Positions 10,897-15,473 of a stretch of 45,236 nucleotides of DNA are shown here, one piece after another. The stretch covers positions 1-45,236 of the forward strand of contig JASJCI010000012.1 of assembly GCA_030066085.1 (NCBI GenBank), given 5' to 3'. The stretch is from Gammaproteobacteria bacterium (GTDB taxonomy: Bacteria > Pseudomonadota > Gammaproteobacteria > GCA-001735895). Below the pieces are notes generated by a model. That model was not told where the DNA came from, did not search any database, and saw only the letters and a program-made list of their open reading frames with translations. Numbering within the stretch: the stretch's first letter is position 1; the number at the start of each line of letters is the position of its first letter. Position numbers and translations under genes: made by a program.

Positions 10897-10930
10897 CACG
10901 AAACAAAAGGCGACATTATTCTGTTTCGTG
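10897..10930 (-). promoter_or_regulatory. Inverted-repeat operator candidate upstream of the ene-reductase
   Basis: CACGAAACA (10897-10905) and TGTTTCGTG (10922-10930) form a perfect 9-bp inverted repeat with a 16-base centre. On the minus strand the centre contains AATAAT, which could be a -10 box. Such placement would let a dimeric repressor of the TetR or MarR type block transcription. No regulator gene is adjacent. Confidence 0.5.
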
Positions 10931-10950
10931 CACCAAAGCGCAAAAGTTTC

Positions 10951-11019
10951 GGTACGGCCGGTCAGGTGCGGCCGGCCAGGTGTGGCCGGCGAGGTACGGC
11001 CGGCCAGATAAGCGGCCGG

Positions 11020-11022
<3 letters not shown>
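10951..11022. repeat. Four 14-bp tandem repeats around CGGCCGG
   Basis: Four successive 14-bp units (10951-10964, 10965-10978, 10979-10992, 10993-11006) follow the pattern GGTRYGGCCGGYCA, and a fifth diverged unit runs into the thiolase stop codon. The unit core CGGCCGG is self-complementary. Confidence 0.8.
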
Positions 11023-12225
<1,203 letters not shown>

Positions 12226-12315
12226 TCAGTCACCCCCGCGGGTATACCCGCTCGCTGCCACTCACTGGCACGAATGCTACCGCAAATCGCGCCGCGATAC
12301 GGCATTCGGCTGGCT

Positions 12316-13398
12316 TCAGGCGGAACGCGGCACCCGGTTGCGCCCGGCGAGTACCGGCGCAACACGCCCGGCGATTTCACGCAGCAGGGTCTCGGTAGTC
12401 TCCCAGTCGATGCAGGCATCGGTAACCGACACGCCATAGGTCATGCGGCTGCGATCCGCCTGCAGCGGCTGGTTACCGGCGCCGATGTTGCTTTCGATCA
12501 TCAGGCCGATGATCGAATCGTTGCCGGCGACGATCTGCTCGGCCACCTGGCGCGCCACCAGCGGCTGGCGACCGTGGTCCTTGTTCGAATTGGCGTGACT
12601 GCAGTCGACCATGATGTTGGGCGCGAGCCCGGCGCCGATCAGCGCGGTCTCGGCACTGGCGATGCTCTCGGCATCGTAATTCGGCCCGTTGCTGCCGCCG
12701 CGCAACACCAGGTGCGCATCCGGGTTGCCGCGCGTGTGCATCACCGCGACCTGGCCGGCCGCGTCCATGCCGAGGAAGCTGTGCGGACTGGCGACCGACT
12801 GCAGCGCATTCAGCGCCACGCCGAGGCCGCCGTCGGTGCCGTTCTTGAAGCCGACCGCGGAACTGAGCCCGGAGGCCATCTCGCGGTGCGTCTGCGATTC
12901 GGTCGTGCGCGCGCCGATTGCCGACCAGCTGATCAGGTCCTGCAGGTACTGCGGCGTGATCGGATCGAGCGCCTCGGTCGACAGCGGCAGACCCAGGTCC
13001 GCCAGCCGCAGCAGCAGCCGGCGGGCGATTTCGAGGCCCTCGCCGACCTCGAAACTGTCGTCAAGGTGCGGGTCGTTGATGAGGCCTTTCCAGCCCACCG
13101 TGGTGCGCGGCTTCTCGAAATAGCTGCGCATGACCAGCAACAGGCTGTCGTCGACCTCGCGCGCGAGCGACGCGAGTCGTTCGGCGTAATCGAACGCGGC
13201 GTCGACGTCGTGGATCGAACAGGGTCCGACCACCACCAGCAGGCGCGGATCCTCGCGCCGCAGGATGTTCTTGACCGCCTGGCGCGCGCGCGTAACCTTG
13301 CCGCGCAGCGCCGGGGTCACCGGTAATTTCTGTTTCAGCGCCTGCGGTGTAATCAGCAGTTGCTGTGCCCTGATGTTGATGTTTTCCAGTTCTGTCAT
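12316..13398 (-). CDS. aroG: 3-deoxy-7-phosphoheptulonate (DAHP) synthase, class I
   Basis: The 360-residue enzyme joins phosphoenolpyruvate and erythrose 4-phosphate, the first step of the shikimate pathway. AroAI-alpha motifs are clear: VVVGPCSIHD (metal/PEP), MRSYFEKPRTTVGWKGLINDP, GARTTESQTHREMASGLS, GFKNGTDGGLGVALNA and VDCSHANS. ATG 13398 gives the normal N-terminus. The isozyme type (Phe-, Tyr- or Trp-sensitive) cannot be assigned from sequence alone, so the symbol is a best guess. Expression appears to be controlled by the attenuator at 13429-13595, whose leader peptide carries paired Trp, Tyr and Phe codons. Confidence 0.95.
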   Translation of the reverse strand: MTELENINIRAQQLLITPQALKQKLPVTPALRGKVTRARQAVKNILRREDPRLLVVVGPCSIHDVDAAFDYAERLASLAREVDDSLLLVMRSYFEKPRTTVGWKGLINDPHLDDSFEVGEGLEIARRLLLRLADLGLPLSTEALDPITPQYLQDLISWSAIGARTTESQTHREMASGLSSAVGFKNGTDGGLGVALNALQSVASPHSFLGMDAAGQVAVMHTRGNPDAHLVLRGGSNGPNYDAESIASAETALIGAGLAPNIMVDCSHANSNKDHGRQPLVARQVAEQIVAGNDSIIGLMIESNIGAGNQPLQADRSRMTYGVSVTDACIDWETTETLLREIAGRVAPVLAGRNRVPRSA

Positions 13399-13428
13399 GT
13401 TGCACCTAGTATCTTTTGCCGGACGCAT

Positions 13429-13463
13429 AAAAAAACCCCGTTGGCGCTGCCTGACGGGGTTTT
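13429..13463 (-). terminator. Attenuator terminator in the aroG leader
   Basis: A 10-bp stem (AAAACCCCGT, 13463-13454 on the minus strand, with 13441-13432) closes a 12-nt loop and is followed by seven U residues (complement of 13429-13435). It ends about 30 bases before the aroG ATG and points into the gene, so it can only act as a premature terminator. Its loop contains AGGCAGCG, the 3' arm of the competing antiterminator. Confidence 0.9.
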
Positions 13464-13506
13464 ATTGCCGAAGGCAGCGAGCACTACCTTCGACCGGGGA
13501 AGGTAG
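13445..13506 (-). promoter_or_regulatory. Competing leader hairpins (antiterminator) of aroG
   Basis: Minus-strand order: segment 1 CTACCTTC (13506-13499), two bases after the leader stop; segment 2 GAAGGTAG (13491-13484), pairing with 1 over 8 bp; segment 3 CGCTGCCTTC (13479-13470); segment 4 AGGCAGCG (13452-13445), pairing with segment 3 over 8 bp and trapping the terminator 5' arm in its loop. GAAGG of segment 2 can instead pair with CCTTC of segment 3, releasing the terminator. A ribosome finishing at the stop would cover segment 1 and favour 2:3 plus termination. A ribosome stalled at the Trp codons would leave 1:2 and 3:4 and allow read-through. The pairings are read from the sequence; the switching model is inferred. 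Confidence 0.8.
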
Positions 13507-13508
13507 AG

Positions 13509-13595
13509 TCAATCAGCAAAAAAGTAATAGCCGGCCCACCAGCTGCGCGCATCTCGCGAGCTGCGGTTGACGGTTTTCGACGACGCGAAAATCAT
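13509..13595 (-). CDS. aroG leader peptide with Trp-Trp, Tyr-Tyr, Phe-Phe
   Basis: This is a 28-residue frame, ATG at 13595 to TGA at 13509. Residues 19-28 read WWAGYYFFAD: two Trp (TGG TGG), two Tyr (TAT TAC) and two Phe (TTT TTT) codons within eight positions, directly before the stop and the competing hairpins. All three end products of the pathway entered by the downstream enzyme are represented. A modest AGGGT lies upstream of the ATG. The peptide is expected to act only through its translation, by ribosome stalling when any of the three aminoacyl-tRNAs is scarce. Confidence 0.9.
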   Translation of the reverse strand: MIFASSKTVNRSSRDARSWWAGYYFFAD

Positions 13596-13641
13596 GGCTA
13601 TTACCCTGCTACCTTGCCTGTGGCATTCGTGTGAACGCTCG

Positions 13642-13669
13642 ATAGTAACAATTTCAGCCCGGAAAACAA
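13642..13669 (-). promoter_or_regulatory. Promoter of the aroG leader transcript
   Basis: On the minus strand TTGTTT (13669-13664) and TACTAT (13647-13642) are 16 bases apart. Transcription would start near 13635, about 40 bases before the leader ATG. The box lies just after the stop of the small Cys-containing gene. Confidence 0.6.
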
Positions 13670-13677
13670 GCCGCGGG

Positions 13678-13938
13678 CTAGACGGCCTTGCACTTTTTCA
13701 TCTCTTCCTGCAGTTCCTGCAGCTTGCCCTGGTTGAGCAGGCTCATCGACCGCGCGCAGGAAAAGACACACTGCATGCGCTGGATCTTGGCACAGTTTTG
13801 CGCGCGGATCTTGAGCCGCTTGAGCAGCTGTTCGCGCTTGGCCTCGGTATCGCTGGCCTGCACCGATGCAACCGGCGCGGCGGCCAGCGTGGCGAGCAGC
13901 AGCAGGATCGGCAGGCGGTATACAAGTTTCGCTTTCAT
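13678..13938 (-). CDS. Small secreted four-cysteine protein, unknown family
   Basis: The 86-residue protein has a signal peptide (about residues 1-29, ending VQASD). The mature part is about 57 residues, helical and Lys/Glu-rich, with four cysteines (NCAKIQ, MQCVFSC, KKCKAV). The C-x3-C and paired spacing suggest two disulfides, as in a helical hairpin, or a metal site. I do not recognise a family. It lies between the decarboxylase gene and aroG on the same strand, 42 bases after the decarboxylase stop. Confidence 0.65.
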   Translation of the reverse strand: MKAKLVYRLPILLLLATLAAAPVASVQASDTEAKREQLLKRLKIRAQNCAKIQRMQCVFSCARSMSLLNQGKLQELQEEMKKCKAV

Positions 13939-13979
13939 TGACAGTCCGGGTTCCCTGTAATCTGGTCAGACAGTCAATA

Positions 13980-15473
13980 TTATAGCTGCGTATCGGCATT
14001 CTGCCCGCCGTCGGACAACTCCGTTTCGAGCCCTGCGCCGATACGCAGGATGGCGTCGACCAGCCCTTCGACCTGTCCCTCGCCGGTGCGCGCGCCGAGG
14101 AAACAGGGCCTGAGCGCGAGCCGGCCGTCGACCCGGGTAGTGCTCGGCAGGTATTGGTTTTCCCGCACCAGGCGCCGGTGCAGCCGGCGGTTGAATTCGT
14201 CGAGGTCGTCGACGCCCGCCGGTCGATAGCGAAAACAGCACACCGACAGCGTCGGTTCGAGCAGCAGCTCGAGACGCTCGTGCGCGCGGCAGCGCGCGGC
14301 CAGCTCGCGCGCCATGTCGTTATGTCGCACGATCCGCTCGCGCATACCCTCGGCGCCGATTTCGCGCAGCATCGCCCACACCACGACCCCGCGGCACGGT
14401 GAGCTGAGTTCGAGCCCGTAGTTGAAATAGGGAATGCCGAAATCGTCCATCGAGTGTTCGATGCGAGGTTCGTCAGCGTCGGATTGCTCGAGCGTGCCCT
14501 CGAGATAATCCGACGCTTCCTGGGTGAACGCGCGCTCGAGAATATCGCGCTCGTGGACGAAGGTGGCGGCGATACCGACCGCCGCGCCGAGCCACTTGTG
14601 CGGGTCGGTAATCACCGAATCCGCCTGCTCGATCCCGCGATACAGTCCACGCACGCGCGGGTCTAGAATACCGGGTAACCCGTAAGCGCCATCGACGTGG
14701 TACCAGATACCGTGTGCGCGCGCGACTTCGCCGATCTCGGCGATCGGGTCGATCGCGCCGGTGTTGGTCGCGCCGGCATTGGCCACGATCGCCACCGGCA
14801 GAATGCCGTCGCGCAGGTCCGACTCGAGCGCCCGGCGCAGCGCATCGACGCGCATGCGTTTACCTTCGTCGCAGGCGATCAACGCCACCGAAGCCCGCCC
14901 GAGGCCGAGCACGCCGGCCGAGCGCTGGATGGTGTGATGACATTCCTCGCTGGCATAAATCCGTACCGCGCGATCGACCCCGTGCAGCGCCGGATCGCGG
15001 CCGATCTTCTCGAAGGCATGCTGACGCGCGGCACCCAGACCGACCAGGTTGGCTACCGAGCCGCCGCTGCTGTAGACACCCTTCATCGCGCCGAGACCGA
15101 GCAGTTCCGCCAGCCATTCCAGTGACAGTTCCTCCACCAGGTTGAACGCGGTCGGCAGGTAGCGCGCCGGCGAGGCAACGCTGGCGGCGGCGCTGGCGAG
15201 CACCGATGCAGTGACCGGGCCGGTCACGATGTAGCCGGTGAAACCGGGCTTGCTGATCGGCTGGCCGTTGGGGATCAGCGTCTCGACCAGTTCACGGGTA
15301 ACCGCATCGATACCCTCGCCGGTTCGCGGCAGCGGCTGCGCCAGCCGCGGCTGCCATGCAGCGCGATTGACGAACGCATCGGCGTGCTCGAACCTGAGAT
15401 ACTCGTCGAGCCCGGCGCCAACCTGCGCCAGCAGCGTTTGCAGGCGACCGAGTTCGGCTTTTTCAGTTGACAT
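13980..15473 (-). CDS. Group II pyridoxal-dependent decarboxylase
   Basis: The 497-residue protein belongs to the family of aromatic-L-amino-acid, glutamate and diaminobutyrate decarboxylases. It shows GVYSSGGSVANLVGLGAAR, the PLP-stacking His in YASEECHHTIQRSA, NAGATNTGAIDPI, the conserved Asp in YHVDGAYGLPG, and the Schiff-base lysine in TDPHKWLG. The start is ATG 15473. The substrate cannot be fixed: the general layout resembles tyrosine/tryptophan or 2,4-diaminobutyrate enzymes. Its place just upstream of an aromatic-pathway gene hints at an aromatic substrate, but that is only context. Confidence 0.88.
   Translation of the reverse strand: MSTEKAELGRLQTLLAQVGAGLDEYLRFEHADAFVNRAAWQPRLAQPLPRTGEGIDAVTRELVETLIPNGQPISKPGFTGYIVTGPVTASVLASAAASVASPARYLPTAFNLVEELSLEWLAELLGLGAMKGVYSSGGSVANLVGLGAARQHAFEKIGRDPALHGVDRAVRIYASEECHHTIQRSAGVLGLGRASVALIACDEGKRMRVDALRRALESDLRDGILPVAIVANAGATNTGAIDPIAEIGEVARAHGIWYHVDGAYGLPGILDPRVRGLYRGIEQADSVITDPHKWLGAAVGIAATFVHERDILERAFTQEASDYLEGTLEQSDADEPRIEHSMDDFGIPYFNYGLELSSPCRGVVVWAMLREIGAEGMRERIVRHNDMARELAARCRAHERLELLLEPTLSVCCFRYRPAGVDDLDEFNRRLHRRLVRENQYLPSTTRVDGRLALRPCFLGARTGEGQVEGLVDAILRIGAGLETELSDGGQNADTQL

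Follow-up and report, generated by a model that had tools for sequence, protein, structure and literature searches.

Aromatic amino acid synthesis begins with DAHP synthase, whose textbook control consists of the TyrR and TrpR repressors together with feedback inhibition of separate isozymes. The gammaproteobacterial DNA analysed here (the window, 45,236 nucleotides in all) carries a DAHP synthase gene preceded by a short ORF that, read on the minus strand within 13595-13429, ends in ...SWWAGYYFFAD and a stop codon. This raises the question of whether expression of the gene could be set by a single leader that reads Trp, Tyr and Phe together. We consider it likely, with good confidence, that DAHP synthase transcription is controlled here by ribosome-mediated attenuation through such a leader, in which case one switch would probably sense when any of the three amino acids runs short.

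Leader and competing helices of the window RNA

The features are as follows, numbered on the window.

12316-13398, minus strand: class I (AroFGH-type) DAHP synthase gene (aroG), the gene proposed to be regulated; NCBIfam NF009395 538.6 bits, TIGR00034 500.2 bits
13429-13463, minus strand: intrinsic terminator AAAACCCCGU/ACGGGGUUUU with U7; the same terminator type stands before DAHP synthase in homologues
13445-13452, minus strand: segment a5 AGGCAGCG, in the terminator loop; a3:a5 is the predicted antiterminator
13467-13479, minus strand: segment a3, partner of a2 via GCUGCCUUCGGC or of a5 via CGCUGCCU
13483-13494, minus strand: segment a2, core GAAGGUAG at 13491-13484, partner of a1 (8 bp) or a3 (12 bp); a2:a3 shows covariation
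13499-13506, minus strand: segment a1 CUACCUUC, starting two bases past the stop codon; from the helix listing and masked folding
13518-13541, minus strand: control codons TGG TGG GCC GGC TAT TAC TTT TTT (WWAGYYFF); Trp, Tyr and Phe recur in 38 of 39 leaders
13595-13509, minus strand: leader peptide ORF of 28 codons, MIFASSKTVNRSSRDARSWWAGYYFFAD then stop; homologous leaders occur in relatives
13642-13669, minus strand: tentative promoter TTGTTT-16-TACTAT, a weak consensus match absent from a stricter scan

The closest solved relative of the encoded enzyme is 6agl, a Tyr-sensitive DAHP synthase. Transcription from the tentative promoter is predicted to begin some 40 nt ahead of the leader ATG. 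The parts expected of a leader attenuator are present, namely a short ORF, presumably translated, that is rich in codons for the pathway products (WWAGYYFF before DAHP synthase), and an intrinsic terminator between this leader and the structural gene.

Past the leader, the a1:a2 hairpin (CUACCUUC/GAAGGUAG) has 8 bp, the a2:a3 helix (GUCGAAGGUAGU/GCUGCCUUCGGC) 12 bp and the a3:a5 antiterminator (CGCUGCCU/AGGCAGCG) 8 bp, the last being mutually exclusive with both neighbouring helices. The terminator consists of 10 bp and seven T; the last T lies at 13429, and 30 nt separate it from the aroG ATG (13398). A sequence-only reading of this DNA had already described the leader, hairpin, antiterminator and terminator, and its coordinates and counts proved exact to the base in the sequence check and helix listing; the a2:a3 helix had only been implied there, as a 2:3 pairing. 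When all post-leader stems were listed, the top four by stacking energy were a2:a3, the terminator, a3:a5 and a1:a2. By overlap, a1:a2 excludes a2:a3, and a2:a3 excludes a3:a5; a3:a5 in turn encloses the 5' arm of the terminator and uses its loop, and hence excludes the terminator. None of 200 dinucleotide shuffles of the window RNA reached the total energy of a1:a2, a2:a3 and a3:a5. No Rfam family, including Trp_leader, Phe_leader and T-box, matched the window at its gathering threshold, and at a permissive threshold the best match was an unrelated sRNA family (18.3 bits against a threshold of 49.5).

Recurrence of the leader before DAHP synthase genes

A genome-collection search with the window DAHP synthase gave 80 named loci, and in 10 of them, all from metagenome-assembled Gammaproteobacteria, a short ORF with clustered aromatic residues near its stop and a terminator precede aroG. 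Among the same 80 loci, the copies of window-type aroG in Pseudomonas, Cellvibrionaceae and Halomonadaceae are without the leader. Since many close aroG homologues (Pseudomonas, Cellvibrionaceae) do without it, the leader is a lineage-specific or mobile regulatory choice. The homologue comparison proposed by the sequence-only reading is borne out in that leader and stems recur before DAHP synthase, with the Trp, Tyr and Phe codons kept in 38 of 39 leaders, the competing stems retained and compensatory changes in a2:a3, but not in the sense that every close homologue carries them.

A covariance model built from the leader-bearing loci was run on the order containing locus L034 and class-wide. 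In the former (294 genomes) 14 matches lie before DAHP synthase, each of them checked individually; in the latter (369 genomes) the model matched the window and, besides it, only two places without DAHP synthase downstream. As the model misses divergent members, these counts are lower bounds. Matches without DAHP synthase downstream (L140, L142, L162, L174, L176, L178, L179 and others) were taken as false positives. A second group of leaders stands before a different DAHP synthase paralogue and includes cultured Halomonas, Vreelandella, Billgrantia, Modicisalibacter and Salinicola (for example MRGYWFGYWFTTGVPVAMS in Halomonas faecis); a simple terminator search yielded a terminator for some but not all of the Halomonadaceae leaders.

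In total 39 leaders were collected, which are kin to one another and were partly found through their aromatic content. Trp, Tyr and Phe all fall within the last 20 residues in 38 of them, where roughly 26.5 of 39 would be expected from the aromatic count, the sequences being related; the leader of L047 is without Trp. A scan of 1.04 Mb on both strands for a short ORF with Trp, Tyr and Phe near its end followed by a strong terminator gave 7 occurrences, every one upstream of DAHP synthase.

The helices recur as well, the shared layout standing before DAHP synthase genes of unrelated genomes. A strict search recovered the a1:a2 / a2:a3 / a3:a5 architecture in 14 of 23 loci; for 13 of the 14, no more than 5 of 200 shuffles scored equally. 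Because whole-region MAFFT alignments misaligned the a2:a3 stem, covariation was assessed only in a small set of loci whose loops are equal. In these six loci the a2:a3 positions are 100% paired, 8 cells have changed on both sides where shuffles give 2.8, and sliding the helix out of register lowers pairing to 24-57%.

The position of a1 follows the aromatic codons. In most loci of the first group it begins at or just past the stop codon, 11-17 nt past the first nucleotide of the last aromatic codon. The exceptions are L047, in which the ORF ends in Phe, and L067, where an upstream partner was favoured by the search. In the second group a1 falls within the ORF right past the aromatic run, as codons for GVP or PGR. 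With the ribosome footprint taken as about 13 nt from the A-site, a1 in both groups would sit immediately downstream of the leading edge of a ribosome paused at the final aromatic codon.

Some relatives show variations on this layout. In L101 (2384-2464) two hairpins, each with a T-run, lie between leader and aroG, and the first may be an early terminator that replaces a2:a3. In L102 (2352-2448) a3 pairs directly with the 5' arm of the terminator (GCCTTCC/GGAAGGC), which is closer to the classical kind of antiterminator than a3:a5 is. Another short ORF, with W-R-F/Y codons and possibly a second leader, was also seen between the attenuator and DAHP synthase (e.g. MQHSASKSVSWWYAFGICWRFYRY, or one reading ...TGWRFISGWRY), at 1678-1752 in L138, at about 1623-1793 on the reverse strand in L161, and past the first terminator in L165.

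In most relatives the leader peptide is predicted to be encoded on a leaderless mRNA. An in-frame leader ATG lies 6-9 nt, mostly 7, past the best -10 box and thus at the predicted transcription start in 18 of the 23 non-Halomonadaceae loci (L033, L034, L047, L059, L064, L067, L072, L073, L102, L136, L138, L143, L147, L148, L160, L161, L163 and L164), and no out-of-frame ATG was found at the same distance in these 23. The predicted promoter of the leaderless loci is often of the type TTGCAA-N16-TATTAT. By predicted starts, the window, L101, L137, L139 and L165 do not have their ATG at the transcription start. Precedents for leaderless leader peptides come from S. meliloti trpL (PMC7298713) and from Streptomyces (PMC8079986).

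Ribosome position, the proposed switch and rival readings

The effect of ribosome position was modelled by masked folding, in which the ribosome-free RNA is folded at equilibrium at the point just before the 3' arm of the terminator is made. With the ribosome at the Trp, Tyr or Phe codons of the window, about 7-8 pairs are expected between a5 and upstream RNA, and with the ribosome at the Asp or stop codon 0.03. Antitermination is thus predicted for a stall at each of the six aromatic codons, and the window has, by prediction, an exclusive antiterminator that depends on ribosome position. During stalls at the Trp codons a5 is predicted to pair with upstream RNA other than a3, so that at equilibrium the switch is less clear-cut for Trp than for Tyr and Phe. 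Across the 23 loci, at least three pairs are lost in 13 when the ribosome moves from the last aromatic codon to the stop, where shuffles would give 2.8 such loci; the other 10 (e.g. L033, L064) show no clear switch in this test, some of them with all helices present.

In this model, a ribosome that stalls allows antitermination, and one that runs to the end of the leader enforces termination. If any one of the three charged tRNAs were scarce, the leading ribosome would wait at the matching codon, leaving a1 free, as it is predicted to be even during a wait at the last Phe codon; a1:a2 could then form and a3 could pair with a5, so that the terminator would be blocked and aroG transcribed. With all three charged tRNAs plentiful, the ribosome would reach the stop codon and cover a1, a2:a3 would form, a5 would stay unpaired and the terminator could form. 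The sequence-only reading had assigned 1:2 + 3:4 to read-through and 2:3 + terminator to the off state, which agrees with the masked folding. The leader would accordingly have to be translated, the terminator to act and each amino acid to elicit a response. Without translation the window RNA folds to the antiterminated form, so read-through would be the default state in this model. As the off state is the more stable at equilibrium in the window, the on state would rely on folding during transcription, and the kinetic outcome given here is inferred from equilibrium folding. This stop-proximal logic predicts that blocked leader translation gives higher, not lower, read-through, the opposite of trp.

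The general parts, a leader ORF with control codons, competing hairpins and a terminator, are common to the E. coli trp and pheA attenuators, and as in these, stalling at control codons would select between terminator and antiterminator. The E. coli systems read one amino acid each and have a 1-2-3-4 layout in which the control codons fall within segment 1; the stalled ribosome covers this segment, and 2:3 serves as antiterminator. The window differs in having five segments, a segment 1 past the aromatic codons and the opposite parity. Because the helix positions place segment 1 past the stop codon (or past the aromatic run) rather than under the control codons, and because a2:a3 contains no terminator arm and the terminator-blocking helix is a3:a5, the trp-type four-segment layout (segment 1 over the control codons, 2:3 with the 5' arm of the terminator) was rejected, and canonical trp-type attenuation is improbable here. 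It is also very improbable that the nascent aromatic peptide arrests the ribosome by sensing free amino acids instead of uncharged tRNA. Some residues past the aromatics are conserved (GVP, PGR), but they are encoded by a1 itself (e.g. GGTGTGCC for GVP), so RNA pairing explains their conservation and the arrest-peptide reading of them was dropped; moreover, the order and length of the aromatic run are not constant, which sets it apart from the arrest peptides known so far. That a constitutive terminator merely follows a chance ORF, with no regulation, is hardly credible. Short ORFs are many in bacterial genomes and the full-length fold of the window RNA stands out only modestly (z = -2.1), but the recurrence before the same gene, the a2:a3 covariation and the specificity scan all argue against it.

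A further alternative accepts the attenuator as real and holds that in practice it depends on just one or two of the amino acids, the other aromatic codons being passengers. Stalling strength varies with codon, tRNA supply and position, and the leader of L047 does without Trp. Codon content alone is also no proof of a response, because the C. glutamicum DAHP synthase leader has a Tyr codon and is reported to show no Tyr response (PMC11802643). Against this stand the retention of all three aromatics in 38 of 39 leaders, against a rough expectation of 26.5 for these related sequences, and the antitermination predicted for every aromatic codon of the window. We regard the passenger explanation as unlikely, though worth keeping in view, and prefer the leader that reads Trp, Tyr and Phe together. 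The wider proposal is that DAHP synthase attenuators of this class are widespread and horizontally mobile and act as an OR-gate for Trp/Tyr/Phe shortage, with a logic inverted relative to trp (a finishing ribosome masks segment 1 and an untranslated leader reads through by default) and with the leader mostly on leaderless mRNA. This remains tentative, and falls a little short of what we would call probable.

Known attenuators and the genomic setting of aroG

The E. coli ilvGMEDA leader reads several branched-chain amino acids, with the stalled ribosome masking segment 1. The ilv leaders resemble the window leader in that a single leader senses more than one end product of a branched pathway at a step they share, and differ in that the amino acids are branched-chain and segment 1 is masked by the stalled ribosome. 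The ilvL leader of S. lividans likewise reads several branched-chain amino acids (PMC8079986). The trpLE(G) attenuator of S. meliloti is similar in having its leader peptide at the 5' end of the mRNA (PMC7298713), as predicted for most relatives of the window leader; it reads Trp only, and the window member is predicted not to be leaderless. Closest in position is the aroR leader of the C. glutamicum aroF operon (Neshat et al. 2014), which also places a leader-peptide attenuator with aromatic control codons directly before DAHP synthase. It contains Phe-Tyr-Phe and is reported to respond to Phe, with no effect of Tyr (PMC4046766, PMC11802643). It lacks Trp and belongs to Actinobacteria, and the likeness is one of description. 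The 5' region of Shewanella aroF is tabulated as 'Attenuator sensing tyr-tRNA' (PMC2659441), again a proposed RNA-element control of a DAHP synthase gene; in the part of that paper considered, the table cites E. coli aroF-tyrA work, concerns Tyr only and is accompanied by no three-aromatic leader sequence.

A literature search that took in few subscription papers, and not the 2004 survey of attenuators in proteobacteria, found no published leader reading Trp, Tyr and Phe. The sequence-only reading had described trp, phe and his attenuators as carrying runs of one or mainly one amino acid, to which the ilv leaders add a known kind that reads several; its remark that a leader with all three aromatics seemed undescribed agrees with the search. 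Attenuation, multi-amino-acid leaders (ilv) and a Phe-Tyr-Phe leader of DAHP synthase were thus already known, and what appears new is the presence of all three aromatics in one leader. One self-contained RNA sensing any of the three products would be the aromatic counterpart of the ilv leader, with no regulatory protein needed, and this independence may explain why the leader travels with aroG. As cultured Halomonas, Vreelandella and Salinicola carry relatives of it, direct testing is possible.

In the window, the decarboxylase and OYE-family genes on either side of aroG are about 3 kb apart, and in three relatives about 54-112 nt. The segment at 10906-13980, which holds pcaF (3-oxoadipyl-CoA thiolase), aroG with its leader and a small ORF, lies between PLP decarboxylase and OYE-family genes that are neighbours in genus relatives. 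The contig flanks, 14-24 kb in parts, match all 29 of the other genus members searched, so the contig is native and a misbinned contig was ruled out, the aroG unit alone being inserted. On this comparison the unit of about 3 kb appears to be an insertion specific to the window genome. An 86-aa ORF upstream of the attenuator (13678-13938) has no NCBIfam match.

The leader was not found elsewhere in the window's own order among the genomes searched, nor before the second DAHP synthase of the window genome (contig C71). A leader general to the close genus was ruled out, the genus being mostly without aroG of this type. The simplest reading of these comparisons would be horizontal gain of aroG together with the switch; independent loss in relatives is a less simple alternative. 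In the protein tree, the window aroG groups with those of L102, L064 and L087 (support 96/88), two of which carry leaders.
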